From contig NZ_CP098740.1 of assembly GCF_026167665.1 (NCBI RefSeq), positions 7,254,001 through 7,318,000 of the forward strand: a DNA stretch of 64,000 nucleotides. The letters run 5' to 3'. Under the pieces are notes generated by a model. It searched no databases. It worked only from the letters and a program-made list of their open reading frames with translations, and was not told the origin of the DNA. The DNA comes from Streptomyces drozdowiczii. GTDB lineage: Bacteria; Actinomycetota; Actinomycetes; Streptomycetales; Streptomycetaceae. A program made the translations under genes and the position numbers. Positions 25,901 to 64,000 of this stretch are shown here, piece after piece. Numbering within the stretch: position 1 is the stretch's first letter; every line of letters begins with the position of its first letter.

Positions 25901-26478
25901 GGGATGTCGGGGTTGAGGGCAGCGATGTCCCTCCAGCGTGGTCCGCTGCCGAGGTAGGTCTGGGCGAGCTCCCATGGCGATTCGGTGGCGGAGGTGACGG
26001 TGTGCTGCAACTTCGCCACGGGCGGCGCCGGTGTGTCGCCGGTGTTGTGGGCGCCCTGCCCGTCGGTGTGGGAGACGGTCGCGGCGACTGCGGGTGCGAC
26101 CGTGGCTGCAGAGGCGGCGGTCGGGGCGAGGAGCACGATGCCGCCGATCAGGAAGCTCGCGAGGGACTGCATGCCGCCCAGGCCGCGGATGCGGGGAGCG
26201 GACCGGCGGCGCAGGACCGCGATGAGTTCTACCAGGACGGAGAAGGCGAAAGCCGCCCAGGCGGCCCAGCCGATGCAGGTCATGACGACCAGGAGCAGCG
26301 ACCCGTCGTCCTGCTGGGTCAGCAGCTCTGTGCCGCCGGGCAGTTCGGTGGGCTGGTGGCCCACCGTGAGCAGCAGGAAGGGGGCGCCGAGGACCAAGGC
26401 GGCCAGGAGGGACAGGCCGAGCAGCGCCCGCAGTACGGTGCCGGCTGCGCGCAGCGGGGCGGGGGAGCGGTTGGCCAT
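22961..26478 (-). pseudogene. LysM + BTAD membrane protein ending the Tad/T4SS operon (frame broken once)
   Basis: From ATG 26478 the protein has three hydrophobic segments in the first 140 residues. Two LysM-like modules follow (SPWELAQTYLGSGPRWRDIA; YTVRPGDYLSKIAETELGDG), then a long Thr/Pro/Ala linker, a further hydrophobic segment (GLGATGFLAAALVGSLAYRR) and a large cytoplasmic region. The frame breaks near 24088 (CCCCGG) and continues as AVPYYNEEPAYTEAG through a winged helix (VCVLGPVELRGARGSVASNR) and a BTAD/SARP-type helical domain (CDWAEFERLVHESHR...LREALTLVRGRPFAG) to 22961. Joined length is about 1172 residues. LysM-BTAD proteins are regular members of actinobacterial Tad-like loci; LysM binds peptidoglycan, BTAD suggests regulation. 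One base missing explains the break. Confidence 0.75.
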
Positions 26479-49212: not shown

Positions 49213-49461
49213 TTGCCGTTCAACCTCGCGGCCCCTCGCGCCCTCGCCGCGATCGACCTGCGTGAGGCGTCCGCCGCCTTTTCCGTCCCCATCGACGGCA
49301 CCGCCCGCGTCGCACAGCACCGACCGCAAGGCACGCCGCGGTGCCGACTCAACGCCGGTTGCTCTATTGGTTGCGCAACGGGTTGTACTACAGGTTGCCG
49401 GACAAGGTGCGCTACGGGTTGTGCTACGGGTTGTCTACCCGAAATCCATGGGAGTGCGTAG
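49213..49461 (+). CDS. possible small protein ending in a Cys-every-four-residues repeat
   Basis: 82 residues from a weak TTG start. The first 48 codons have strong GC3 and read like protein (FNLAAPRALAAIDLREASAA). The C-terminus is CSIG-CATG-CTTG-CRTR-CATG-CATG-CLPE, seven cysteines spaced by exactly four residues, encoded by the 12-nt repeat at 49356-49439. The repeat codons have low GC3, so the repeat may be a DNA element and not selected as protein. Confidence 0.3.
   Translation: MPFNLAAPRALAAIDLREASAAFSVPIDGTARVAQHRPQGTPRCRLNAGCSIGCATGCTTGCRTRCATGCATGCLPEIHGSA
49356..49439. repeat. seven tandem 12-nt repeats (consensus GGGTTGTGCTAC)
   Basis: Units CGGTTGCTCTAT, TGGTTGCGCAAC, GGGTTGTACTAC, AGGTTGCCGGAC, AAGGTGCGCTAC, GGGTTGTGCTAC and GGGTTGTCTACC run without gaps. 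A GGGTCAGCGC copy follows at 49481. They lie in the 760-bp stretch between 49171 and 49934, where only a weak gene (49213) and hairpins are otherwise seen. Iterons of an origin or regulator sites are possible. Confidence 0.6.
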
Positions 49462-49640
49462 CCGCAGGTCAGCCGTCATTGGGTCAGCGCTTCCTTCCGG
49501 CGACACCTCTTCCCCGAAGGGGAAGAGACCTTCTGCTTCTCCCCTCCCCGCGGCGGCCGGCAGCGGAAGAACTGGTTCGGCTCAGCTGAAGGCCCAAGGC
49601 CACGAGGGCCGTGTACCTACCTGTTCCCGGGCATGAAAGC

Positions 49641-49686
49641 GGCCGGTGCCCCGGTCCGCCGAAGCGGGTGGCAAGGGGCACCGGCC
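49641..49686 (+). terminator. hairpin with 12-bp stem
   Basis: GGCCGGTGCCCC (49641-49652) pairs with GGGGCACCGGCC (49675-49686) around 22 bases. A second small hairpin, CTCTTCCCC-GAA-GGGGAAGAG, lies at 49507-49527. Confidence 0.5.
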
Positions 49687-49934
49687 AACCGAAATCACAC
49701 CCCCGCAGGCGAACCCGGGAGGGGACTCGCTGACCAGGTTACCGTCCCGCTCGTGTGGCCGTGGCGAGGGCGCGTGGTGGTGAGAGCTTGCGGAGCATGA
49801 CAAAAACGTGGCATCTTTGTCTCCCTTGGTGGGGTGGTTGCCGTGGGTCGACGTTCGTCGGTCCGGGTGCCACGTCGCTGTCGGCGGGATCGCCTGAGCT
49901 CCTGCCTCCTCGAATCGAAGACGGGACGAACGCG

Positions 49935-50959
49935 ATGATCCGCGCCGGACGGCTCAAGTACGTGCAGACGCTGGCCGGCCTGGCCGAGCAGCTGGGTGTC
50001 TCGTACGGCACCTTGAGGAACAAGAGGCTGCACGCGGTCGAGGGGCATCCGGCTCCGATCAGTTCGCCGACGGCGCGGGTCCAGCTCTGGGACTCGGAGC
50101 AGACTGCGGCGTTCCATGCGGGGAAGCCAGTTCCGGCTCTTTCGGACACGGATGACGACCAGGACCTCCTGGACCGCCATGAAGCCGCTCTCGAACTGGG
50201 CGTCTCCGCGGCCACCTGGAACGGCTACAAGAGCGACCCCAGGCTGGCCGAGCATGTGGTCCAGGTGCCGGAGGAGGGGGGACGGAGCACTGGCCCAGGT
50301 ATGTCGTGCGCGAGTTCAAGAACTCCAGGCCGGGCCGCGGCGCCGGGGGCGGGCGGCGTACGGGCAGCGGTGACGTGGTCCCACGGGACCAGTTGCAGCC
50401 GCGGATCGCCGAACTCCTCGACGCGAACCCGGCGGTCACGGTCGGCGACGTCGTCGACGCCCTGGGCGTCGTGTTCCCCACCGCGCAGGCCGGTCTCGTC
50501 CGAGTCCGCGGCCGGCGCATCGCCGACCTGGTCGAGGCCGAGCCGGAGCTGACAGCCGCACAGGCCGCCGAGCGCCTCGGCTTCCCGAAGGCCACCCGCA
50601 AGGGCGCGGTCGCCGCAGCTGAGGCGGAGCTCCATGCGCGCAGCGCCCTGCCGTACCTGCAGAACGTGGCAGACGTACTGGCCCGGGCCGGGGTGGCCGA
50701 GCCCGTCCAGGTCGAGGTCCGCCAGCTGGCGGGCGGGCACCTGGCTGCCGCCGTTCCGCTCGCCGCGGGGCAGGGCGCGCCGGCTCTTGTGTGGGACGAG
50801 CGGTTCGGGTGGCGTACCGCGACCAGCCGCCGCCACCCCATCGGCAAGGACGCTGGCACTCGCCCGGAAGGAGAGGGGATTCACTACCTCGCCTCCGGTA
50901 CGCACCCGGATCCGGAGGTCCTGATCGGCTCGCTTGCGAAGGTCGGCGCGCAGCGCTGA
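49935..50959 (+). pseudogene. multi-HTH DNA-binding protein with DUF6292-like C-terminus (one frame break)
   Basis: From ATG 49935 (codons upstream of it have poor GC3) two helix-turn-helix units appear: LAGLAEQLGVSYGTLRNKRL and RHEAALELGVSAATWNGYK. At a G6 run (50277-50282) the frame shifts by one base, and the protein continues EHWPRYVVREFKNSRPGRG with further HTH-like helices (TVGDVVDALGVVFPTAQAGL; LTAAQAAERLGFPKATRKGA). It ends in a domain ALPYLQNVADVLARAGVAEP ... ALVWDERFGWRTATSR resembling actinobacterial DUF6292. Joined length is about 341 residues. Repeated HTH units suggest a plasmid regulator or replication/partition DNA-binding protein. The break is probably an indel in the homopolymer. 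Confidence 0.65.
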
Positions 50960-51135
50960 GCGGACATGGCGCCGGTCTCGGGGCGCGGGCGGCAAGCTGA
51001 TTGTGGGCGGTAGGGGCGCGGCGTTGGCGGGTGCGGGGCTGCGGTGGTGCTCGCATCGGATCGCTCGTCAGTCGTGGTGGGGGATCCGGGTGTTCTGTTC
51101 CGAGGGGTGGTCGACACACCCCGCGAAGTGACAGA

Positions 51136-51178
51136 TGCATGGTAAGCTTTTCTCGTTGGTCGGTGGTGGCAGCCGACC
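51136..51178 (+). promoter_or_regulatory. promoter-leader module, copy 1
   Basis: TGCATGGTAAGCT followed by TCGTTGGTCGGT-GGTGGCA-GCCGACC. The last part folds as a 7-bp RNA hairpin with one G-U pair. It lies 38 bp upstream of the ATG at 51216. It is one of five near-identical copies (see findings). The 50960-51135 stretch upstream is non-coding. Confidence 0.65.
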
Positions 51179-51215
51179 CGCATCCGAAAGCACACGCACC
51201 CCAGGGGAGACCCCT

Positions 51216-52357
51216 ATGTCCTTCGACCCCGCCCTGAGCAAGCCCCCCACCCCGACCGAGTTCGGGGAGGCGACCCCGCAGACCTGCCTGCGCGTGGTCC
51301 GAGCGGCCGCCACTCTCGCCGCGGCCGCCGACGACGCGGCGCTGGACGCATTCTGCAGGAGCAGCACCAGGAGCATGGCCCGCCTGGAGACGGTCATGCA
51401 TGCCACCCACCGCGAGGCGGTCGAGGCCGAGCGCTACGCCGCTCTCGCCGAGGAGTGGGACGCCGACCCGAGCATGCCCGACCGGGCGCTGCGGCGGTGC
51501 GCGACCCAGGCCGTCACCCACGCCCTGGCCGCCCAGCGCGAAGCGGGTGTCGAGCTGACGGCCCTCGCGCTGCGCGGCGAACTGGAGCGCGCCCTCACCC
51601 CCAGGAGCGCGCCGAGCGGGAGAGCGCCCAGCGCAAGCAGGAGGCCGAGGAAGAGGCCGCAGAGCGTGCCGCCACCGGCATGGACCAGGAGAACCGGCAC
51701 CTCGCCGCCATGAACGGCTACCTCGCCAAAGAGGTGGTGCCCGACCTCGGCTGGACCGCCGGTCACCTCCGCGTCCTGGAGGCCGCCGCGACCGGACGGC
51801 TGTACGTCCGCGACGGTCAGGTACGGCGCGCCCCCGCAGACGGCGGGTTCAGCGGCGGCCGCAGGGTCAGCAAGGACCGGACCCAGGCCCTGTACGCCGC
51901 ACGCTTCCTCACCGCCCGGGCCATCGACGGGGTCCGCGTCCTGACACCGACCCCGATGGGTCAGGTCGCCCTGGAGCTCGCCCGTCTGTACCCGCAGGGC
52001 CTGCACGAGAGCGACAAGGCGGCCTACGAGGCCCGCTACGCCCGGGTCGCGAAACGGCACATGAGCATGGACGACAAGAAGGCCGCCGCCCGGCGCCTGC
52101 CCGCCCTGGACCGCTGGAGGATGGCCCGCTACCGCCGCCCGGTCACCCTCGTCGAGCAGGAGGCCCGCGCCGCGCGCGAGGCGAGCGAGCAGTGGGAGAG
52201 CGAGGGCGGCTACTGCCCGGGCGTCGGCACGCCGAGCCCGGAACCCGGGCGTCGCACCGAGAAGGGTCCGAAGTCCGGGGCGCAGCAGGCCGGGGAGCCG
52301 CAGGGCGCGCCGACGACTGCGCCCGCACGCCCGTCGGCCCGGTCCACCACCGCCTTC
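51216..52357 (+). pseudogene. helical protein fused to or preceding the methyltransferase (frame break)
   Basis: ATG 51216 follows module copy 1 and CAGGGGAGA. The N-terminal part is helical (CLRVVRAAATLAAAADDAAL; ATQAVTHALAAQREAGVELT). At the C5 run near 51598-51602 one base is missing and the frame continues PQERAERESAQRKQEAEEEA, then KEVVPDLGWTAGHLRVLEAA and a winged-helix-like region (LYAARFLTARAIDGVRVLTP). No stop separates it from the methyltransferase motifs downstream in this frame, so a fusion protein is possible. Function unknown, though a helical plus winged-helix layout suggests DNA binding. Confidence 0.55.
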
Positions 52358-53115
52358 GTGCTCCTGCCGACGGGCAGGCGGTTCCGCCGCCCGCGAGTCC
52401 TCGACCTCTTCTGCTGCTCGGGGGTGCGGGGATGGGGTACTGGCTCGCCGGATTCGACGTCGTCGGCGTCGACATCGTGCCCCGGCCCCGATACCCCTTC
52501 GAGTTCATCCAGGGGGATGCCCTGGACGTCATGCGGGAGCGGGGGCAGGAGTTCAACCTGGTCCACGCCTCTCCGCCGTGCCAGGCGCACACCACGCTGA
52601 CCAAGGGCACCAACAAGGGCCGCACCTACATCGACTTGATCCCGCAGATGCGGGAGCTGTGTCTGTGGTTCGGCGTGGACTGGGTGATCGAGAACGTGCC
52701 GGGCGCCGACATCCGCCGGGACCTCAGCCTGTGCGGGGAGATGTTCGGGCTCGGGGTCATCCGCCACCGCGACTTCGAGACCGGATGGCTCGGCACCCCG
52801 GGACCGGAGCAGCCCCGGCATCTCAAGCACCGGGGCTCCGTACGGGGATGGCGCCACGGTGTCTGGCGGGACGGCCCCTACATCGCCGCGTACGGCAAGG
52901 GCGGCGGGAAGGGCACCGTCGCCGAGATGCAGAAGGCCATGGGCATCACCTGGACGGACGTGCACGAGGAGCTGACCGAGGCGATCCCGCCCGCCTATAC
53001 CCACTACATCGGCCAGCAGTTCATCACCACCGGCGAACTCGGCGCCGCCCATCTCCCGGACCCGGCGGCGCGCCTGGCCGCGCTGGAGCGCTCCGGACTC
53101 GCACTCGTCAGCTGA
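52358..53115 (+). pseudogene. C5-cytosine DNA methyltransferase, one frame break
   Basis: Motif I begins in one frame (RVLDLFCCSG) and continues after a missing G in the G5 run near 52422-52426 as GAGMGYWLAGFDVVGVDIVP. Motif IV is ASPPCQAHTTL, with catalytic Cys in PPC, and motif VI is WVIENVPGA. The C-terminal motif is YTHYIGQQF. Length from GTG 52358 is about 252 residues, the short form common in actinophages and plasmids, with little room for a separate target-recognition domain. It would methylate cytosine C5 in DNA. No cognate endonuclease is visible. It precedes the PP-loop enzyme. Confidence 0.75.
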
Positions 53116-53140
53116 CCCGAACCGCCAGCTGAGCTGCACC

Positions 53141-53167
53141 GCCCGCCGGGCCCTCGACCCGGCGGGC
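53141..53167 (+). terminator. hairpin after the methyltransferase gene
   Basis: GCCCGCCGGG (53141-53150), 7-base loop, CCCGGCGGGC (53158-53167). Confidence 0.55.
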
Positions 53168-53246
53168 CGGCCCGCCACCCCGGGGGTGGCCGTGGCAGCC
53201 ACCCCCGACCGAAGACACACCACCCTTCCGTCGTGAGGACACACCC

Positions 53247-54554
53247 GTGGACATCACCACCCGCCTCCACCTCCTCGACACCGCCCGCCGCGCCTACCAG
53301 GCCGACACCGCCCTGAGCGCCGCGGACCGCTCCTTCCACCGCTCCGCACGGGCGACCGCCCAGGCGCTTGTGACCATCACGGACTGCGAGGAGCAGCTGG
53401 CCGCCACCCGTCACCTCTCCCAGGCCATGGCCGCGAGCGCTGCTCTGGACGACGCCCGGCAAGCGCACCGCGACTGCACCGGCCGCCGCCGCAAGGCCGA
53501 CAGCAGGCGGCGCCGCGCGTTCACGGCTTCCCGGAGGGCGAATCGGGAGCTGGCCGCCCTTTACCGGCCGCACGCGCGAGGGCGCGGGACAGGCGGCAAG
53601 CGCCTCTCGTCTGTGACGGCGGGTCTGCTGGATGAACTGGTGGCCATGCCGCTGGATCTGATCCAGGCGGCCGACGTCCTGCTCGTGCAGTCCAGCGGCG
53701 GCAAGGACTCGCTCGTGATGCTGCACCGGATCGCCACCTGGGCGGCCCGGGCGGGCTGCACGGACAAGGTCGTCGTCGTCCACTGCGACCTGGGCGAGAA
53801 CTCGGAGTGGCCGGGGGTGCGCAAGCTCGCCCAGCGCCAGGCCGAGCGGTACGGGCTGCGCTTCGTCGCCGTCGACTCCACGGGCGGCCTGCTCGGACTC
53901 GTCGAGAAGCGCGGAATGTTCCCGGACGCCGCCCGGCGCCTGTGCACGGCGTCTTTGAAGCGGGACCGGGCCAACGTCCTGCTCACGGAGATCGTCGCCG
54001 CGCTCGGCCTCGACCGCCAGGTGCTCGTCCTCAACTGCATGGGACTGCGCGCGGCCGAGTCACCCGCCCGCAGCAAGAAGTCCCCGCTCTCCATCGATAC
54101 CCGGACCAGCAACAACAAGCGCCTCGTACTGACGTGGCATCCGATCCTCGATCTCTCCGAGACCGCCGTCTGGCAGACGATCGCGGACGAAACCCTGGAG
54201 TACCACCCGGCTTACGACGCGCTGATGCCACGGCTGAGCTGCGTCTTCTGCGTCCTGGCCGGATTCGACGTCCTGGTCCGCGCGGTCCGCCTGTGCTGGG
54301 CCCTGGACTTGCCCCTGCCCGAGCAGTACACCGATCTCGAAGCCCGCATCGGCCATCGGTTCAAGGACCAGTACAGCCTCGCCGACGTCGTCGCCGAAGC
54401 CCGCCACGTCGAGGAGCGCGAAGGCCGGCTCACCTGGACACGCGGAGACGCCCTGCGCACACACCTCGGGGGTGAAGCCGCGGCGGCGTACCTGGAGCGG
54501 ATGGCGGACTACGAGTCGGACGCCTATCTGGAGCGATTGACCCTGGTCGTCTGA
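53247..54554 (+). CDS. PP-loop enzyme of the PAPS-reductase family
   Basis: 435 residues, GTG start. Residues 1-110 form a helical, Arg-rich extension. The catalytic core starts VLLVQSSGGKDSLVMLHRIA (PP-loop SGGKDS at residues about 150-155), then VVVHCDLGENSEWPG, RRLCTASLKRD (the C-T-S-L-K-R pattern of phage and plasmid PAPS reductases), GLRAAESPAR and HPILDLSETAVW. A Cys pair, LSCVFCVLA, is near residue 335. The family activates or transfers sulfur through ATP pyrophosphatase chemistry; relatives include DndC of DNA phosphorothioation and phage CysH-like proteins. The substrate is unknown. It sits directly after a DNA methyltransferase, so DNA or nucleotide modification is a reasonable guess. 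Confidence 0.75.
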   Translation: MDITTRLHLLDTARRAYQADTALSAADRSFHRSARATAQALVTITDCEEQLAATRHLSQAMAASAALDDARQAHRDCTGRRRKADSRRRRAFTASRRANRELAALYRPHARGRGTGGKRLSSVTAGLLDELVAMPLDLIQAADVLLVQSSGGKDSLVMLHRIATWAARAGCTDKVVVVHCDLGENSEWPGVRKLAQRQAERYGLRFVAVDSTGGLLGLVEKRGMFPDAARRLCTASLKRDRANVLLTEIVAALGLDRQVLVLNCMGLRAAESPARSKKSPLSIDTRTSNNKRLVLTWHPILDLSETAVWQTIADETLEYHPAYDALMPRLSCVFCVLAGFDVLVRAVRLCWALDLPLPEQYTDLEARIGHRFKDQYSLADVVAEARHVEEREGRLTWTRGDALRTHLGGEAAAAYLERMADYESDAYLERLTLVV

Positions 54555-54865
54555 CGCGGGCCAGCCGTCCGGATGATCAGTCTCACCGTGGACGCGCGGC
54601 CGGCGCCTGCCTGACCTACCGTCGGATCGGGTGCTTCCTGACAGGACGTGGCGCTCAGGGGTGGCCTCGCGGAACCTTCGCACGTGCGCGGGGCCATCCG
54701 TCCGTTCAGGCGCCGTTGCTCGCCGCTTGTGTGGTCTGTGGGCTTACGGGCGGGTGCCCATCTTTGTGAGACCGCCCGGGAATGCGGTCGTCCGCGTCGG
54801 GAACGGCAGTTGATGCCGAGGGTGTCCTGGCTGGGGAGGGCGGAACACAAACACTCCGCGACAAA

Positions 54866-54908
54866 TGCATGGTATATTTTTCTTGTTGGTTGGCGGTGGC
54901 AGTCGACC
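54866..54908 (+). promoter_or_regulatory. promoter-leader module, copy 2
   Basis: TGCATGGTATATTTTTC with extended -10 TGGTATATT, then GGTTGGC-GGTGGCA-GTCGACC, which still pairs fully as RNA using two G-U pairs. It lies 40 bp before the gene at 54948. The rest of the 54555-54865 gap shows no gene. Confidence 0.7.
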
Positions 54909-54947
54909 AGCGCCGAACTCACGCCATCCCCCTTAAGGATCAACATC

Positions 54948-55529
54948 ATGACTAGTTCTCACGCCGTCGCTCTCAACGACTTCGTGGCCGTGTGGAGCAG
55001 CAGCACCAGCGTTGCGCCCGCCCTTTCGTGCGCGGAGCTGGACGCTCTTCTCGCGCTGTTCGGCGCCGCCGGTCGACGGGAGGCTGCTGCCGCGTGGATC
55101 GGCGCGCACGCGGAGTCCGGTGACTGCGAGGGCCACGACGCTCCCGCCACCCCCGCGCTCGCACCGGCCGTCCACGCAAGCGGTGTCTACTGCCCGCCGC
55201 CGGGGACCGAGTTCCCCTTCTCCGTCTCCGACGTGGTGCGCGCCGTCGCCCGCCTCCTCGGCAAGGGGTGGACGGTCGATACCGGCTCCTGGGGCCTGGA
55301 CGGCAACGTCGTCAGCCCCTGCGGAGCCGTCTTCAAGATCTATGTCGACCACGAAGGCGACCTCATCGCCGAGTGCCCGTCCCATGACATCCCTGAAGAC
55401 CTGGATCTGCCCGACGGCTTCCTTGGGTGCGACGACGGCATCTACCTCGAACTGGCCACCTACAGCGACGGCCTGGACTACCTCGCCGGACGGTACGCGG
55501 ACGCGATCCGCGCCGTCATCGGCGACTGA
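54948..55529 (+). CDS. orphan protein; C-terminal half paralogous to the next gene
   Basis: 193 residues from ATG 54948 (AAGGA upstream) behind module copy 2. An N-terminal helical part is followed by a domain of about 100 residues: FSVSDVVRAVARLLGKGWTV, DTGSWGLDGNVVSPCG, IYVDHEGDLIAECPSHD and YLAGRYADAIRAVI. The gene at 55769 repeats this pattern (FDLARAAVRTLGRDWAVKRG, DWGV...LLWVDESGDLCLD), so the two are paralogues. No known family or activity. It is followed by a 15-bp terminator, so it is a single-gene unit. Confidence 0.65.
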   Translation: MTSSHAVALNDFVAVWSSSTSVAPALSCAELDALLALFGAAGRREAAAAWIGAHAESGDCEGHDAPATPALAPAVHASGVYCPPPGTEFPFSVSDVVRAVARLLGKGWTVDTGSWGLDGNVVSPCGAVFKIYVDHEGDLIAECPSHDIPEDLDLPDGFLGCDDGIYLELATYSDGLDYLAGRYADAIRAVIGD

Positions 55530-55575
55530 ATCATCGCGCCCCCGGGCCTGACCGGCCCGGGGATGCAGTGGCAGT

Positions 55576-55610
55576 GAGCAGGGGCCCCGCCCATGGCGGG
55601 GCCCCTGCTC
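55576..55610 (+). terminator. 15-bp perfect terminator hairpin
   Basis: GAGCAGGGGCCCCGC (55576-55590), loop CCATG, perfect complement 55596-55610. Confidence 0.8.
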
Positions 55611-55686
55611 GCGCGATCGGCTCCTGCGGTCGATGCCTTGTCGGCCGCGCCGCCGCGCCGCACGAACCACCGACATGCATGGCAGA

Positions 55687-55729
55687 CGCATGGTATATTT
55701 CTCTTGTTGGTCGGCGGTGGCAGTCGCCC
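55687..55729 (+). promoter_or_regulatory. promoter-leader module, copy 3
   Basis: CGCATGGTATATTTCTC with extended -10, then GGTCGGC-GGTGGCA-GTCGCCC; one mismatch in the hairpin. It lies 40 bp before the gene at 55769. Confidence 0.7.
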
Positions 55730-55768
55730 AACTCCGAAATCCGCACCCTCGATCCACGGAGGACACCC

Positions 55769-56347
55769 ATGTATCCCCACCCCGATGATCAGACCCGGTT
55801 CAGCATCTTCGATCTCGCTCGCGCGGCCGTCAGGACCCTTGGCCGCGACTGGGCGGTCAAGCGCGGAGACTGGGGCGTCTCCGCAACCCTCTTCAACGAG
55901 TCGCGCACCTTCCTGCTCTGGGTGGACGAGTCCGGCGACCTGTGCCTCGACTACACCCGCCCGTCCGACGAGCTCCTGCCCGAGGTCATGCCGAATGGTG
56001 TCGCGGTGTACCCCGGCGGCATGTTCTTCGAAGCGGCCCGCGCCACCGAGGGGCTGTTTGCCCTGTCGGTGAGGGTCGCGTCCGCGGTACAGGCCGCCGT
56101 TACCGGAACCTCGGAATTGATGATCGAGATCCCGGCGCCGACCAGCGGTGACGAGCTGGGGCGCGCACACGCGCAGTGCGGCCCGATCCTCATCTACCCG
56201 GCTGGTAGGCCCCTGATCTGCCACTCCGCCGAGCATGACGCTCCGACTGTCGCCGAGCGCATGGTGTCGTACTGCGGCTTCACCCTCCCCGCCTGCGGTG
56301 ACCACGAGGCCGCCGCCGCCGAGTTCGCACGCGAGTGGACGACCTGA
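55769..56347 (+). CDS. orphan protein paralogous to 54948
   Basis: 192 residues from ATG 55769 (CGGAGGAC upstream) behind module copy 3. The first 110 residues contain the shared domain (IFDLARAAVRTLGRDWAVKR, LWVDESGDLCLDY, GMFFEAARATEGLFALSVRV). The C-terminal 75 residues are unrelated to the paralogue (GPILIYPAGRPLICHSAEHD). The conserved GDWGV/GSWGL and (V/D)DESGDL positions may be structural. Function unknown. It is probably a soluble cytoplasmic protein. Confidence 0.65.
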   Translation: MYPHPDDQTRFSIFDLARAAVRTLGRDWAVKRGDWGVSATLFNESRTFLLWVDESGDLCLDYTRPSDELLPEVMPNGVAVYPGGMFFEAARATEGLFALSVRVASAVQAAVTGTSELMIEIPAPTSGDELGRAHAQCGPILIYPAGRPLICHSAEHDAPTVAERMVSYCGFTLPACGDHEAAAAEFAREWTT

Positions 56348-56434
56348 GCCGACCCGCACCGCCGGGCGGGTGTGCCGCGAGCCCACGCCTGCCCGGCCCC
56401 CGCTCACCAACCGCCCCCCGCAGAAGGAACCGCG

Positions 56435-56749
56435 ATGAGCACCACGAGCCGCGCCATGTGGACAACGGGTTACATCAAGCCGGTCGACCTCCGGTTTCGC
56501 GACTGCGTCCGGATCGACGGCCGATGGGTGGAGGTGCTGGACGTCTGGAAGAACCCGGCCGACTTCGACCCGAACGGCTGGAGTGACGAACGGTGCGCCG
56601 AGGTACTCGACCACCTTGACGACGAGGGCCTGTACGTCGTCATCCGCCACCTTGTTGAGGAAGGGTTCCACGACGGGGAGGACCGGATCAGGGTGCTCCG
56701 GTGCGCCGACCTGGTGGAGATTCAGACTCCCGTCTGCGGCGCCCCCTGA
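56435..56749 (+). CDS. small orphan protein
   Basis: 104 residues from ATG 56435 (AGAAGGAAC upstream). Compact alpha/beta composition: DLRFRDCVRIDGRWVEVLDV, LDHLDDEGLYVVIRHLVEEG, RIRVLRCADLVEIQ. It lacks its own promoter-leader module and lies 87 bp after the previous gene, so it is probably co-transcribed with it. A 14-bp terminator follows at 56877. Function unknown. Confidence 0.6.
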   Translation: MSTTSRAMWTTGYIKPVDLRFRDCVRIDGRWVEVLDVWKNPADFDPNGWSDERCAEVLDHLDDEGLYVVIRHLVEEGFHDGEDRIRVLRCADLVEIQTPVCGAP

Positions 56750-56876
56750 CAGCCCGCCAGGCCCAGGGTGGAGCGGCGCGCGAGTCGTACCGCCCGACGG
56801 CCTGCTCCGGTGAAGCCTGGCAGACGTAGCGGCACACCGCGCAACGTCGCCCCGGGCCGGCCAGAAGCGCAGACCA

Positions 56877-56906
56877 GAGAAGGGCCCCGCTTGCGGGGCC
56901 CTTCTC
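56877..56906 (+). terminator. 14-bp terminator hairpin
   Basis: GAGAAGGGCCCCGC (56877-56890), TT loop, GCGGGGCCCTTCTC (56893-56906). The remaining 56750-57003 stretch is non-coding. Confidence 0.75.
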
Positions 56907-57003
56907 GCGTTCGGGGCAGACCTGCGGCGACACTAGTCAGCGGTGCTGTGACCTGTGTCAATGCTTGGCGTTGAGGGTTCGAGAACCACCGGGAATGACG
57001 AAT

Positions 57004-57045
57004 GCGTGGTATCCTTTTCTTGTTGGTCGGTGGTGGTAGCCGACC
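57004..57045 (+). promoter_or_regulatory. promoter-leader module, copy 4
   Basis: GCGTGGTATCCTTTTC, then GGTCGGT-GGTGGTA-GCCGACC; 7-bp hairpin with one G-U pair. It lies 39 bp before GTG 57084. Confidence 0.7.
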
Positions 57046-57083
57046 CACACCGAGATCAGACACCCCATCACGGAGGAGGCCCC

Positions 57084-57743
57084 GTGCCCTTCGACCTCAG
57101 CAACCCGTTTGAGTTCAGCGTCTTCACGATCGTTGATCCGTACCTGCTCACGGACGAGACGTACGAGAAGCCCGAGACGCTGCTGGAGCTGACCAGCATC
57201 GGCACTCAGCCGTACGCGACGCTCCCGCTCATGCCGGGGGTGGAGATGCACCACTGCCCTGGCGACCCCGGCGCCCACAACGAGCTCGCGGTCGCAGTTG
57301 CCGCCCGCTTCGGGCACGAAGGGGCCCGCATCCACGGGCCCGTCCACTTCACCGGCGTGTCCACCGGCCCGTACCTCGCGCCCGGTATGGAGCCCGGCAC
57401 CGTTCTGGACTTCTACGATCACCTCGGCGCCGTGTGCCGTGACCTCGGCGTCCGGATGTGGCGCCAGCGCCGCCCCTCCGACACGGTCAGCATCCGCTAC
57501 GACGACCTCGTCCAGGGCGACGCCTTCTGGTTCCTCAACGAGGCGCACCGCTTCATGGGCTTCCGTGACCTCCCCGCCGACAGCCCCACCCTCGATCTCA
57601 TCCCCGGCGCCCGCATGCTGTTCTGTGACGACGGCTTCGAGATCCCCGTAGTCCCCTCGGCGACGTACCGGGACCGCGCCGACCGGGCCCCGGCCGGTTA
57701 CTGGCAGCGCACCGGCAACCAGCTCCTGCGCGCCGACAGCTGA
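57084..57743 (+). CDS. orphan protein
   Basis: 219 residues from GTG 57084 (GGAGGAGG upstream) behind module copy 4; the open frame back to 56955 covers the leader and is not used. Mixed alpha/beta with many aromatic residues (FSVFTIVDPYLLTDETYEKP; DTVSIRYDDLVQGDAFWFLN; LDLIPGARMLFCDDGFEIPV). The central EHYD-like part, LDFYDHLGAVCRDLGVRMW, is helical. No family recognised. A 13-bp hairpin terminates it. Confidence 0.65.
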   Translation: MPFDLSNPFEFSVFTIVDPYLLTDETYEKPETLLELTSIGTQPYATLPLMPGVEMHHCPGDPGAHNELAVAVAARFGHEGARIHGPVHFTGVSTGPYLAPGMEPGTVLDFYDHLGAVCRDLGVRMWRQRRPSDTVSIRYDDLVQGDAFWFLNEAHRFMGFRDLPADSPTLDLIPGARMLFCDDGFEIPVVPSATYRDRADRAPAGYWQRTGNQLLRADS

Positions 57744-57750
57744 CACCCCC

Positions 57751-57779
57751 CGGGCCCGGCGGTCGCACCGCCGGGCCCG
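57751..57779 (+). terminator. 13-bp terminator hairpin
   Basis: CGGGCCCGGCGGT (57751-57763), loop CGC, ACCGCCGGGCCCG (57767-57779). Confidence 0.75.
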
Positions 57780-57800
57780 TCCCGAGACCAGGAGAACCGC

Positions 57801-58079
57801 ATGACCACCACACGCACCCCGGCCCCGTGCGACACCGCACCGGAGGCCACAGCGAAGACCGTCACGGTGACGGTCGAGCTGACCGTCACCGAGGACGTCA
57901 CCTACGAATTCCGCTCGGAAATCGACATCCCGGCAGGCATTGCCGCCGACCCCGACGAGCTGCACGACTACCTCTCCGAGAACGAAGACGTCTGGCTGGA
58001 CGATCTCGACCCCGTCGGCGCAGTCCTGTACATCAACGAGCGGCACCTGGACCAGGCCGCCATCGTGCTCACCGCCTGA
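57801..58079 (+). CDS. small acidic orphan protein
   Basis: 92 residues, ATG preceded by CAGGAGAACC. Strongly acidic (ELTVTEDVTYEFRSEIDIPA; HDYLSENEDVWLDDLDPVG), probably a single beta-sheet domain. It lies 20 bp behind a hairpin terminator, so it depends on read-through or its own promoter. It resembles the next small protein in size and the TVTVELTVTEDVTYEFR / YEVSWTIELEAPG strand pattern. Acidic small proteins on phages and plasmids may act as DNA mimics; that is speculation. Confidence 0.6.
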   Translation: MTTTRTPAPCDTAPEATAKTVTVTVELTVTEDVTYEFRSEIDIPAGIAADPDELHDYLSENEDVWLDDLDPVGAVLYINERHLDQAAIVLTA

Positions 58080-58091
58080 CCGCCCACACCT

Positions 58092-58128
58092 GGTGGCTGC
58101 CGCGCCCCGACGTGGCGCGGCAGCCACC
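58092..58128 (+). terminator. 15-bp hairpin between two small genes
   Basis: GGTGGCTGCCGCGCC (58092-58106), 7-base loop, perfect complement 58114-58128. Confidence 0.65.
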
Positions 58129-58149
58129 CACGGCACCGAGAGGAATCCG

Positions 58150-58347
58150 ATGCCCGAGTACGAGGTCTCCTGGACCATCGAGCTGGAGGCCCCGGGCCCC
58201 GTCGAGGCCGCCCGGGCCGCGCTGGCCATCCACCGCAATCCGGCGTCCTGGGCCACCGTCTTTACCGTCCGCAGCGACACCGAAGACGTCACGGTCGACC
58301 TGGACCCCGAGCACACCGACCCGTCAGGACACGGGACACGAACGTGA
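58150..58347 (+). CDS. small orphan protein
   Basis: 65 residues from ATG 58150 (GAGAGGAA upstream). YEVSWTIELEAPGPVEAARA followed by TVFTVRSDTEDVTVDLDPEH: a strand-helix-strand pattern common in short actinobacterial orphan proteins (VEA..A.....P.S.A..F.V). Function unknown. It ends before a long GC-rich hairpin at 58378-58411. Confidence 0.6.
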   Translation: MPEYEVSWTIELEAPGPVEAARAALAIHRNPASWATVFTVRSDTEDVTVDLDPEHTDPSGHGTRT

Positions 58348-58377
58348 CCCCGCCAGCCTGACCGACACCCCCCCATG

Positions 58378-58411
58378 CGCCCCGGAGCGGCACCACGCCG
58401 CCCCGGGGCGC
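58378..58411 (+). terminator. compound hairpin
   Basis: GCGCCCCGG (58378-58386) pairs with CCGGGGCGC (58403-58411), with an inner GCGGC/GCCGC stem. Confidence 0.6.
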
Positions 58412-58597
58412 CCACACGCATCGGGCCGTCTTGCCCCCGCCCCTCCTGCCGCCCCTCAGGGGCGCAGCACAGGGGAGCGGACGGGGCGCAGCACGGGGAA
58501 TTGGGCGCAACAAGCCGGTGTGGCGCCCTCGGCCAGCCAGGCGCCACATTCCTTCCGTACGGGTGCCCGGGGCGGGGCGCGGCCGGGGCGCCGTGGC

Positions 58598-58838
58598 GGG
58601 GGCCGGTCCGCTGCGCTCCCCGGCCCCGCGCGTGCCGGGTCCGCTGCGCTACCCCGGACGACCGCTTCGCCGGTCTCACGCGGATGCGGGGTCCGCTGCG
58701 CTCCCCTTCCGCATCACCGGCGTGTCCGCTGCGCTCCCACGTCGGGCCGCCCGGCCGAGCGGGACCGGTTCGCTTCGCTCCCCGCCCCGAGCGCTGCGCG
58801 CTGCCGGACGGGCCCCCGTTCCGCTGCGCGGAGCGGGG
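58598..58838. repeat. array of about eight hairpins with GCTGCGC/GCTTCGC centres (telomere-like)
   Basis: Successive inverted repeats each centred on GCTGCGC or GCTTCGC: stems at 58599-58606/58620-58627, 58635-58639/58653-58657, 58660-58664/58671-58675, 58683-58689/58709-58715, 58721-58724/58738-58741, 58759-58763/58781-58785, 58790-58794/58798-58802 and 58814-58824/58828-58838. TCCGCTGCGCTC recurs as the loop. No gene is seen in 58348-58931. Streptomyces linear-replicon telomeres consist of palindromes with these same centres (GCGCAGC/GCGAAGC on the other strand). Confidence 0.65.
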
Positions 58839-58931
58839 CAGGCGGCGCCCCGACCACGCCCCGCCCCGGGCACGCGTGCGCTCTGACCTGCGGAAACACG
58901 CCGAGATCCCTTGATCGATGACACTAATTCA

Positions 58932-58968
58932 GGTATCTTTTCTTGTTGGTCGGCGGTGGCAGCCGACC
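58932..58968 (+). promoter_or_regulatory. promoter-leader module, copy 5
   Basis: GGTATCTTTTC, then GGTCGGC-GGTGGCA-GCCGACC, a perfect 7-bp hairpin. It lies 37 bp before ATG 59006. Confidence 0.7.
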
Positions 58969-59005
58969 GCAAACCGAGATCGCTCACACGAATAAGGGGA
59001 CACCC

Positions 59006-59395
59006 ATGTCTGAAGCACGCTTCGCGCTGATCCTCCGCCCCGGCGGCTCCTTCGACGTCATCGACTGGCCCACCGAACTCGCGGCCGGCCTGACCGTCCT
59101 GGCCCAGGAGTTCCGCACCCTCAGCATTGCCGCGCTCGGCCTTTGGCCCGACTGCTCGATGTGGACGGACGCGGAGGCAGCACAGGGAACGGCGCCGCTG
59201 AACCGGTTCGCCGAGAGGGTCCACTGCGCAGCGGGCCTCGCCGCCGAGCACTACTACGGCAGCATCGCGCTCACCGGCGGACTCACCGACGCCGATGACG
59301 GCACCCACACCGGCCTTACCCTCGACGCCTGCCGCGAGTTTCTGAAGCTCGCCGAAATTTCCGTGCCGAGGATTCCCCACCTCCGCACGAAGTAG
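59006..59395 (+). CDS. orphan protein
   Basis: 129 residues from ATG 59006 (AAGGGGAC upstream) behind module copy 5. Compact alpha/beta sequence: RFALILRPGGSFDVIDWPTE, LNRFAERVHCAAGLAAEHYY, GLTLDACREFLKLAEI. The N-terminal strand pattern and 'RPGGSFDVIDWP' resemble small actinophage/plasmid orphan proteins; no family is assigned. A 13-bp terminator follows directly, making it monocistronic. Confidence 0.65.
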   Translation: MSEARFALILRPGGSFDVIDWPTELAAGLTVLAQEFRTLSIAALGLWPDCSMWTDAEAAQGTAPLNRFAERVHCAAGLAAEHYYGSIALTGGLTDADDGTHTGLTLDACREFLKLAEISVPRIPHLRTK

Positions 59396-59407
59396 CTGAC
59401 CTGCGGT

Positions 59408-59437
59408 GTCGGGGCTCTGCCTGAGCAGAGCCCCGAC
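59408..59437 (+). terminator. 13-bp terminator hairpin
   Basis: GTCGGGGCTCTGC (59408-59420), loop CTGA, perfect complement 59425-59437. Confidence 0.8.
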
Positions 59438-59539
59438 GCCCCCGAGACCAATCTCCGCACAATCCGGTTCGAGTTGAGCCGCCCACAGGGCCCGCTCCTC
59501 ACCACTCCTCGCCTGTTCCCCATCCTTTTAGGGACTCCC

Positions 59540-60115
59540 GTGATTCCGGTCAAGAGCACCGAAGAGCAGCGCGCCTCCTACACCCAAGCAATTATCGACA
59601 TGTGGAACTCGGCCACCCGTGACCAAGTACGACGCGGCCGCACGTGGTACTCGAAAGCACACGAATTCGCAGCAGAAATCGCAGCCGGAAACACACACAA
59701 AGGCGCGGGCGTTCTTGCCGCACTCTCCGCCAACAAGTCGTGGAGCGAGAACTGCCGACTGGCCCGAAAAGCATTCTACGAAGGATCCGCAAGCGGACAT
59801 TTCTCCGACGCGATCAGCAAGGCCAACCGCATCATGGCCGGAACGGACCCCGCAGAAGTCCTCCCCATGAACATCAAGACCGGATGCTTCTACGTCTGCA
59901 TCGCACAACCGGACCACCCGGAAACCGTCGTGATCGACCGTCACGCCCACGACATCGCCGTACGCGAAATCTACGGCCAACGGGAACGGGGCCTGGGCGC
60001 GCTCGGCCGCTACAACACCCTCGCCGACTGCTACCGTCTCGCCGCTCACCGCCTCGGCGAACTCCCCAGCACCGTCCAGGCCGTTACCTGGGTGGCGCAC
60101 CTCGAACGCAGGTAG
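59540..60115 (+). CDS. DUF7178-like phage/plasmid protein
   Basis: 191 residues from GTG 59540; upstream in-frame codons lie next to the terminator. The pattern RGRTWYSKAHEFAAEIAAGN, GVLAALSANKSWSENCRLAR, MNIKTGCFYVCI and VVIDRHAHDIAVREI matches a family of actinophage and plasmid proteins (DUF7178 in my recollection) that looks like a helix-hairpin-helix DNA-glycosylase fold: 'ALSPxxxWxxN', a K-x-x-x-F step and a 'D-R-H' acid-base end. Enzymatic activity is unproven. Base composition is lower in GC than neighbours from here to 61.3 kb. Confidence 0.6.
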   Translation: MIPVKSTEEQRASYTQAIIDMWNSATRDQVRRGRTWYSKAHEFAAEIAAGNTHKGAGVLAALSANKSWSENCRLARKAFYEGSASGHFSDAISKANRIMAGTDPAEVLPMNIKTGCFYVCIAQPDHPETVVIDRHAHDIAVREIYGQRERGLGALGRYNTLADCYRLAAHRLGELPSTVQAVTWVAHLERR

Positions 60116-62637: not shown

Positions 62638-64000
62638 TCAAGTGCGCCAGCGTGAGAACCACCGGCCGGGCTCCCGCCGCTCCGGCCCTGCTTGCTCCTG
62701 GCCCTCCTGGTCGTGGCGCTCGGGACGGTTGTGGAGTGTCTGGGCGAGCTGTACGGCGACGAGGGCGCGGCGCTTGCACCGATCGCAGAGCGTGGGGTGG
62801 CTGTCGGCCGGGGTGCCCCAGTCTGCGGTCTGGGTCGCCTTCCAGCCTGCGTCGGTGAACTTCGTCCCGCAGCGCGCGCACGCGGGTCGTTGTGCTTCTC
62901 GTTCCGCGGCGCGCTGTTCGGCCTCCTGGCGCTCGCGTTCCTTCGCCTCGCGCTCGCGGGCGCGCTGCTGGGCCCAGTAGCGGGCGTGGGCGGCGTCGCG
63001 GCGGGGGTTGCCGATCGCGTCAAACAGGGACTGTGAAGTGGGGCGGCCGAAGCGGCGGAAGACGTGGCCGTGCGGGCCGTGCTCGCGGAGGTCGTCCAGG
63101 GTGGTCGTGATGACGGGGATCTTCCTGTCGTAGTGGTGGAAGTCCTCGTCGTAGTCCTTGGTGCCTGCCCAGAGGTGGCGGGTGAGGGCGGCCAGGCGCG
63201 GGATGGTGCGTTCGAGGTTGCGGGCGCCGCGCGGGTTGAAGACGAGGAGCAGCGGCGGGTACGAGTCCTCGGGCCGCGTCCCGGGTGGGGTGGTCCAGCG
63301 GGTGCGCCACATCGGCTGGGCCTTGCCCTCGGTGTCCTTCACCTTGCGGCGGAAGAAGCGGGCGTACTTCTCTAGCTTGTCCGCGAGCTCCTCCGCGGTC
63401 TCGTGGCAGTTGTCGACCTCAACGAACAGCAGCGGCACACCGTCCTGGGGCGCGGTCAGGACGATGTCGGCCTGAGCGCCGCCTCGGCCCGGCGTACTCC
63501 AGGACCCGGCCACCGGCAACGGGACCTCGGTCCAGTACGAGCCGATGCTCCCCACACCGTCAGGTGCGTCGACGACGGCCTGGGCGGCCGACCGCACCGC
63601 GGGCGGATCCGTGGCCAGCTTGGCCAGGTCCGGCTTCGGGCGCAGCAACGCGATGACGGTTTCGTTGACAGCCATCGGGTGGGTGGCACCGCCGGCGCCC
63701 GCACCTCGTGCGGTGGCGCCCATCTCCGACAGGGGGCGCTGGAGCTCCGTGGCGGCGGCCTCCAGGCCCTTGAGGGTCAGGTGACGCAGGGCCTCGCCCG
63801 TGCTTGTGGAACCGCCGGTCGCGGTGAGGCGGTGGGTGCGCAGGTCGGCCAGGGCGGCGGTGTGGGTGGCGGTGCGGGCTGTCTTCCGCTTCGCCGCCGT
63901 CGGCTTCTCCGTGTGGCGGTGGTTCAGGTGCGGCAGAGCGATCCGCTGGATCTGATCCGTGGTGGCGACCTTGAGCACCCCGAGGACGCGCAGCACATCC
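62638..64000 (-). CDS. replication-relaxation family protein, second copy (5' end outside window)
   Basis: At least 453 residues; the frame is open to the right edge, so the true start is beyond 64000 (the GTG at 63996 is probably internal). The N-terminal winged helix is LRVLGVLKVATTDQIQRIAL with HTAALADLRTHRLTATGG. A nuclease-like alpha/beta core follows: ADIVLTAPQDGVPLLFVEVD (D...E-V-D) and KLEKYARFF. It carries an extra C-terminal coiled coil (REREAKERERQEAEQRAAER) and a zinc ribbon (CARCGTKF ... LCDRC), absent from the copy at 34841. The family is typical of actinobacterial plasmids and is linked to replication or mobilisation. Confidence 0.75.
   Translation of the reverse strand, partial: DVLRVLGVLKVATTDQIQRIALPHLNHRHTEKPTAAKRKTARTATHTAALADLRTHRLTATGGSTSTGEALRHLTLKGLEAAATELQRPLSEMGATARGAGAGGATHPMAVNETVIALLRPKPDLAKLATDPPAVRSAAQAVVDAPDGVGSIGSYWTEVPLPVAGSWSTPGRGGAQADIVLTAPQDGVPLLFVEVDNCHETAEELADKLEKYARFFRRKVKDTEGKAQPMWRTRWTTPPGTRPEDSYPPLLLVFNPRGARNLERTIPRLAALTRHLWAGTKDYDEDFHHYDRKIPVITTTLDDLREHGPHGHVFRRFGRPTSQSLFDAIGNPRRDAAHARYWAQQRAREREAKERERQEAEQRAAEREAQRPACARCGTKFTDAGWKATQTADWGTPADSHPTLCDRCKRRALVAVQLAQTLHNRPERHDQEGQEQAGPERREPGRWFSRWRT

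Follow-up and report, generated by a model that had tools for sequence, protein, structure and literature searches.

The original paper on conserved upstream (CUP) sequences is reportedly that of Delver and Belogurov (1997). On IncN plasmids, CUP sequences are conserved upstream sites for ArdK (PMC6289460). In the plasmids pLS20 and p576, one upstream sequence precedes many variable genes within a restricted region, and EGeRS1 was predicted to be highly structured (PMC8708921). The leading regions of conjugative elements are described as rich in anti-defence genes and single-strand promoters (PMC11541004). The present study deals with a repeated leader, composed of a promoter-like part and an RNA hairpin, that occurs five times in a 64,000-nucleotide stretch of the Streptomyces drozdowiczii genome (NZ_CP098740.1, positions 7254001-7318000; hereafter the window). 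The hairpin is under selection at the RNA level, the leader precedes many unrelated genes near the ends of Streptomyces linear plasmids, and it may well mark an establishment-type regulon of the linear replicons of Streptomycetaceae, with the 5'-terminal hairpin probably protecting the mRNA.

The leader and its distribution

The five repeats reported in the earlier note on this DNA were all present on the + strand, far above chance expectation, and all were matched by a covariance model. Copy 1 (51134-51182) has the -10 sequence TAAGCT at 51143-51148, a transcript start predicted from spacing at 51155 and the hairpin at 51158-51178. Copy 2 (54864-54912) and copy 3 (55685-55733) both have TATATT, at 54873-54878 and 55694-55699, with predicted starts at 54885 and 55706 and hairpins at 54888-54908 and 55709-55729, the latter with one mismatch. 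Copy 4 (57001-57049) has TATCCT at 57010-57015, a predicted start at 57022 and the hairpin at 57025-57045. Copy 5 (58925-58972) has TATCTT at 58934-58939 and, with a spacing one base shorter, a predicted start at 58945 and the hairpin at 58948-58968. The -10 region reads TGGTATATT in copies 2 and 3, and TGGTAAGCT, TGGTATCCT and AGGTATCTT in the other copies. Between the end of the hairpin and the start codon there are 37-39 nucleotides. Copies 1 to 5 differed from the 40-base core consensus at 5, 2, 3, 5 and 8 positions, respectively; the next sites in the window, with 17 differences, were the palindromic reverse strand of two of the leaders, and the best unrelated site had 18. In a search of all 7.39 Mb of the genome with a model made from them, the five copies scored 63-72 bits and the sixth-best site 18 bits. 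The repeat itself was thus confirmed, but the literal consensus given in the earlier note (TGGTATMTT, then GCCGACC) had zero matches. Stem pairing is kept by G-U pairs, as had also been stated, but these occur in copies 1 to 4 rather than in copies 1, 2 and 4.

The anatomy of the leader was derived from 137 matches, 125 of them distinct, with a consensus of approximately GTGATGnATGnntGGTATAGTTGTCTTGTTGGTCGGCGGTGGCAGYCGRCCAACA (137 matches). The lower-case t is weak, so that a full TGn extended -10 is present only in part of the copies. The -10 consensus is TATAGT with GG directly ahead, and the TA and TT of the -10 region were found in 125/125 copies. The base seven positions after the -10 was G or A in all 124 rows with a letter there, and T or C stood ahead of it in 122/125; the transcript probably starts at this purine. 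At about -27 to -22 relative to the predicted start, the copies have a GTGATG motif. No canonical -35 was visible in the 125 distinct copies, and a special sigma factor recognising the GTGATG motif was considered. The seven-pair stem starts at +4 and can be extended to +1, the extra pairs at +1, +2 and +3 forming in 73/124, 86/124 and 96/110 cells. No unpaired 5' base precedes the stem in 64/125 copies, one does in 20, two in 27 and three in 14. Each position of the GTGGCA loop was kept in at least 121/125 rows, an invariance that is partly ascertainment by the model, as the loop differs in weaker copies.

A blastn search with copy 2 matched 47 places in 18 plasmid records, all from Streptomyces, and zero phage records. 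A second covariance model was built from 77 matches of the first, which had been made from the five window copies; on the 18 whole plasmid records and three genomes, it detected between 1 and 19 copies in each plasmid record, and 17 in the genome G078. The search of actinobacterial plasmids and phages and the covariance model, both proposed in the earlier note, placed the leader on Streptomyces linear plasmids and, by blastn with copy 2, in no phage record, the model recovering the five copies at high score together with copies in other replicons. Matches at E ≤0.001 were found in 13/392 genomes of a genus sample (the own genome included), matches in 13/394 of a family sample, in 3/17 genera (Streptomyces and two more), and in 1/396 of a phylum sample, namely the own genome and none of the 395 others; these three counts are lower bounds, since above 40 genomes the filters are stricter and only a small number of candidates is scored. 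The same limit applies to a smaller genus sample, which gave 11/101 genomes at E ≤0.1; in seven of the ten genomes other than the own one there was just a single match, of 23-26 bits and in several cases partial, and these matches were treated as chance. A degenerate Streptomyces-type pattern matched 22 stretches in 84,980 species genomes, all titled Streptomyces, and zero viral contigs. For one further leader-bearing genus, the nearest plasmid relative was Kitasatospora sp. NBC_01300.

Rfam 15 gave 0 matches in the window at the gathering threshold, and two sub-threshold matches at E ≤1 lay outside the leaders. No description of the leader was found in Rfam or in the open-access literature (subscription papers were mostly not covered), in agreement with the earlier belief that it was new. 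On the 8.2-Mb contig G346:C1, leaders with equal scores were observed near both ends, at 6273 and 8095 (-) and at 8207949 and 8209771 (+), the mirror arrangement that terminal inverted repeats would give.

The window had been taken for part of a plasmid, but it belongs to a single contig of 7,386,614 bases and lies in a chromosome arm, with about 74-82 kb between the five leaders and the right chromosome end. Positions 49330-60115 of the window partly match the right end of the linear plasmid CP108999.1 (11% of a 16-kb query). The stretch is probably a plasmid-type arm stranded in the chromosome arm. Positions 62980-63999 resemble 'replication-relaxation' proteins of Streptomyces plasmids, so that plasmid-type sequence goes on beyond the leaders. 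Near the end of CP108999.1 itself, one leader (L115:18295-18343, +) faces a stretch annotated only with an opposite-strand gene, and this gene call may be wrong.

Selection on the hairpin at the RNA level

Among 70 distinct rows, 97.5% of the stem cells were paired and 6/7 pairs had changed on both sides, and 0/500 shuffles reached any of five measures. In the 125 distinct rows, the stem cells comprised 709 Watson-Crick pairs, 144 G-U, 4 A-C, 13 other and 5 gapped, counts in which the cells are not independent events, given related leader rows and an alignment made to fit the structure. Shuffled columns of these rows gave 18 A-C on average, against the 4 observed. At six of the seven pairs, G-U was found in 3 to 19 gene clusters. 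The ten-pair stem that includes the +1 base was paired in 90.2% of cells, compared with 6.7-56.1% in slid controls. Mutation is blind to strand, and an excess of changes that pair only in the sense strand therefore points to RNA. Selection acts on the sense-strand RNA hairpin, as the earlier note had proposed.

The leaders of Kitasatospora are in line with this result, as pairing is kept there despite a change of sequence. Thirty-three copies at five loci were located by the promoter and the first five transcribed bases; as the plasmids that carry them are related (86% identity over L105), they are not independent. Mean identity was 0.74 in the promoter versus 0.46 (ungapped) in the hairpin body. 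Bases +2 to +5 paired at a mean probability of 0.87 versus 0.59 in shuffles (0.49-0.65 in twenty control sets), and the +1 base at 0.70 versus 0.36. The conserved feature in Kitasatospora is a predicted hairpin starting at the 5' end. In many of these leaders (L104, L105, L106 and L113), CCCTTCGAACC or a close variant was seen by eye after the hairpin.

An establishment-type reading and its alternatives

Behind the 124 distinct leaders that have an open frame, the first genes encode proteins of 28 clusters at a BLASTP threshold of 1e-5, where some of the singletons may be distantly related. The regulon layout described in the earlier note, one leader ahead of unrelated genes, was supported, the single controlling factor of that note is hypothetical, and recent duplication of whole genes, which had been named as the refuting case, does not hold. 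By scanned representatives, the clusters include DUF3846 proteins (33 members), DNA polymerase III beta clamps (12), a WYL protein (6), a 66-amino-acid protein (6), DUF3560 with LPD29 (5), DUF932 (2) and C5 DNA methylases (2), and many clusters had no Pfam match. One conserved upstream sequence ahead of several unrelated transcription units per replicon, one of the features expected of an establishment regulon, was found.

The leader is also located at replicon ends. On 19 Streptomyces replicons, 136 of 148 listed copies (150 listed of 157 matches, minus two from G016 and G019) pointed to the nearer end, and 128/148 lay at most 30 kb from an end, compared with about 50 under a uniform distribution. 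These counts include the near-identical replicons W03/W06/W08 and W10/W18; without W03, W06 and W18, 116/126 listed copies pointed to the nearer end. Ten of the 12 exceptions among the listed copies were the inward arm of a divergent pair, facing the 66-amino-acid gene opposite the WYL gene. At three loci with mixed neighbours, 19/50 annotated genes pointed outward, compared with all four leaders (first model). A protein search independent of the leader, made with the product of the gene behind copy 5, found relatives in 18 plasmid records; 18/18 were oriented to the nearer end, 17 of them within 3.2 kb. The blastn leader set already included eight of these records, and in six of the other ten, which were fetched, the leader preceded the gene in 6/6, at E <1e-8 in five and at 0.0023 in one with another loop.

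In the mechanism proposed, the cassette would consist of a promoter without a recognisable -35, a purine start and a hairpin stem at or within 3 bases of the mRNA 5' end, with the start codon about 37 bases further along, past a short stretch. Common to many unrelated genes of terminal plasmid arms, the leader would unite them in one regulon. Linear Streptomyces plasmids may transfer end first, and entry into a new cell may well trigger a coordinated burst of establishment functions, among which the DNA methylase, sliding clamp, DUF932, DUF3560, DUF3846 and PAPS-reductase-like proteins would be counted. A hairpin at the 5' end of an mRNA slows 5'-dependent decay, and the leader hairpin probably shields its transcripts in this way. 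Shielding needs structure and no particular sequence, and this fits the Kitasatospora hairpins. In Streptomyces, a protein reading the loop may be added to the shielding.

Several observations weigh against this reading. The open frame that begins 27-62 nucleotides past the hairpin in 124/125 copies (median 37) was found by a script scanning only 18-75 nucleotides downstream, a range in which G+C-rich DNA often has frames of 50 amino acids. With downstream context, the hairpin was not the minimum-energy fold in copies 2 and 3, and in 124 leaders its pairs formed at a mean probability of 0.59 (median 0.78). One of five measures of the ten-pair stem, changes on both sides, was reached by 21/500 shuffles. 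The invariant GTGGCA loop is not needed for plain 5' shielding. The ribosome site was not clearly opened by the leader (accessibility 0.49 versus 0.47 in the shuffled control), and control of ribosome-site access was rejected as its function on this result. Most of the cargo is of no known function; the PADLOC matches in it were of methylase type or weak BrxP or SspD matches only, and the Pfam and NCBIfam scans of the cargo gave no match to ArdA, ArdB or ArdC. The 19 replicons were chosen for carrying the leader, and some are near-identical. In some arms nearly all genes point outward (19/19 annotated in L006), so that the leader alone does not account for orientation there. On the Kitasatospora plasmid NZ_CP108410.1, 14/14 copies in the right 29 kb pointed inward, away from the nearer end, and no copy was found by the same pattern in the left 25 kb; orientation to the nearer end is therefore not general.

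A regulon serving ordinary or stress-time upkeep of the plasmid, and not tied to entry, is a possible alternative, if a clearly less probable one. The sliding clamp among the cargo would suit such a role. Methylases, however, are found among the leading-region genes of conjugative elements (PMC11541004), LPD domains are described from proteins of phages and conjugative elements (PMC5512222), and the listed leader copies cluster at replicon ends; these arguments are indirect.

It is unlikely, though only slightly less probable than plasmid upkeep, that a dedicated protein, the WYL-only or the 66-amino-acid one, reads the hairpin loop in the mRNA, sets translation or stability and controls its own synthesis. 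The near-invariance of the loop would be explained by such a reader. The genes for the WYL-only protein and the basic 66-amino-acid protein (16 members in a protein search, no Pfam match) co-occur in the same 11/30 leader-bearing records or genomes, and all 11 have a divergent leader pair whose starts are separated by 168-190 bases. One divergent gene pair, with both genes behind a leader, lies at L056:25406-25603 (-) and 25915-26301 (+), and others were found in L034, L058 and L059. In a CRISPR system, a WYL protein is able to bind single-stranded RNA, but this binding also requires other domains (PMC6547453). In addition, the two genes were not found in this genome with its five copies, in W03 (8 copies), in G346 (4) or in eight plasmid records with one or two copies, the 66-amino-acid frame of W13 has an internal stop, and the Kitasatospora hairpins have no common loop. 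With the pair present in only 11/30 records or genomes, it was rejected as a universal factor. The combined form, in which a near-blunt 5' hairpin of an establishment regulon would be read by a plasmid-coded, self-regulated WYL or 66-amino-acid protein and expression would be strong until that protein accumulates, is regarded as more doubtful still.

Improbable, and by a wider margin than a loop reader in the mRNA, is a double-stranded DNA operator, in which the inverted repeat would be bound by a plasmid repressor or activator. The dyad does lie just downstream of the -10, and the analogues ArdK/CUP and EGeRS2 act via repressors. The ratio of 144 sense-only G-U to 4 antisense-only A-C cells, not independent events, disfavours this explanation, and Kitasatospora has retained the pairing and not the sequence.

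An Frpo-type single-strand DNA promoter on the entering strand is very improbable. The end-pointing orientation would make the strand with its 5' end at that end the template, which would suit such a promoter, but a sense G-U pair corresponds to A-C in the template strand. Moreover, eight template strands folded within 1.6 standard deviations of shuffles (z -1.53 to +1.29), with the -10 complement wholly or nearly unpaired in 6/8 minimum-energy folds, partly paired in a seventh and mostly paired in the other, and Kitasatospora has the opposite orientation (0/14 toward the nearer end). The template-strand folds and the A-C cells thus disfavour it. Recent whole-gene duplication, or chance, is scarcely credible, as only the paralogous genes behind copies 2 and 3 speak for it, against 28 first-gene clusters, three genera and five copies far above the genome background.

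Genes behind the window copies and comparison with described systems

The genes downstream of the window copies had been called orphans, a description that does not apply to those behind copies 4 and 5. The copy 4 gene (57084-57743, +; 219 amino acids, cluster 5, seven members), followed by 57801-58079 and 58150-58347, encodes a protein with 43-51% identity to proteins in 10 Streptomyces plasmid records. The product of the copy 5 gene (59006-59395, +; 129 amino acids), which has relatives in the 18 records mentioned above, belongs to the DUF3846 cluster (cluster 1) and is DUF3846-like at 20 bits, below the Pfam cut-off of 27.5. The one paralogous pair recognised earlier was confirmed in the genes behind copy 2 (54948-55529, +; 193 amino acids) and copy 3 (55769-56347, +; 192 amino acids), both in cluster 7 with six members, the latter followed by 56435-56749 (104 amino acids).

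Behind copy 1 (51216-53115, +), an open reading frame at 51216-51713, alone in its cluster, is followed by DNA methylase-like sequence spread over more than one frame, which would reflect either a disrupted gene or a sequence error. The best plasmid DNA methylases align from residue 88 of the frame 52192-53115, and zero Pfam matches were obtained in the region. Homology of this methylase to the leader-borne methylase of NZ_CP108771.1 was considered and rejected, with no tblastn match at E 1e-3, although other plasmid methylases match. A PAPS-reductase-like (PP-loop) protein of 435 amino acids (53247-54554, +) has one plasmid relative at 58% identity.

Most of the units had been said to end in perfect terminators. 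Perfect inverted repeats were indeed found after the copy 2 gene (16 bp, 55576-55610, terminator-like), after the copy 3 unit (13 bp, 56877-56906) and after the copy 5 gene (13 bp, 59408-59437), and perfect repeats within the same range of 13-16 bp lie inside the copy 4 unit, but they lack a T run. After the copy 1 unit, the same scan (stem of at least 8, loop of 3-12) gave no inverted repeat, and after the copy 4 unit only one of 9 bp. By eye, a run of GGTCCGCTGCGCTCC-like repeats was seen at 58590-58840, in the gap ahead of copy 5. A second conserved string, GGGTTGACCTGC, was likewise noticed upstream of the leader at L116, L117, L118, L119 and L120, about 115-130 bases ahead of a DUF3846 gene, and CTGACCTGCGGAAAC upstream of copy 5 resembles it.

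The earlier note had likened the layout to the start-associated sequences of mycobacteriophages, and in cluster K these do precede a subset of genes in 11-19 copies per genome (PMC3203893). Kinship was not borne out. The cluster K sequence is a 13-bp asymmetric GGGATAGGAGCCC located at the translation start, in phages, with or without 17-bp inverted repeats just upstream (same source), whereas the conserved part of the leader has another sequence and stops about 37 nucleotides ahead of the start codon, and no phage record was matched by copy 2 in the blastn search. Frpo/ssi elements are similar in being repeated regulatory elements of leading regions rich in anti-defence genes (PMC11541004), but most template-strand folds of the leader present no promoter-like duplex with -35 and -10.

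As with CUP of pKM101, conserved upstream sequences stand ahead of several genes, there in the leading region of one plasmid (PMC6289460). CUP are DNA sites bound by ArdK, whereas in the leader selection acts on an RNA hairpin, and its replicons are linear. Like EGeRS1 and EGeRS2 of the pLS20 family, the leader is one sequence ahead of several operons in part of a plasmid, with variable cargo. EGeRS1, however, measures 420-750 bp and showed no constitutive promoter, and EGeRS2 has a strong promoter and a repressor (PMC8708921), whereas the leader is shorter than 100 bp and, close to the termini of linear plasmids, combines a promoter-like part with a single small 5' hairpin. With its signature, candidate genes for establishment and counter-defence can be listed, most of them without known function, and it offers a testable promoter and a 5'-terminal RNA element with a directly measurable effect, through which the settling of linear Streptomyces plasmids in a new cell would become experimentally accessible. 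If the combined form with a plasmid-coded hairpin reader is true, the leader would represent zygotic control at the RNA level, unlike the DNA repressor and single-strand promoter systems compared here.

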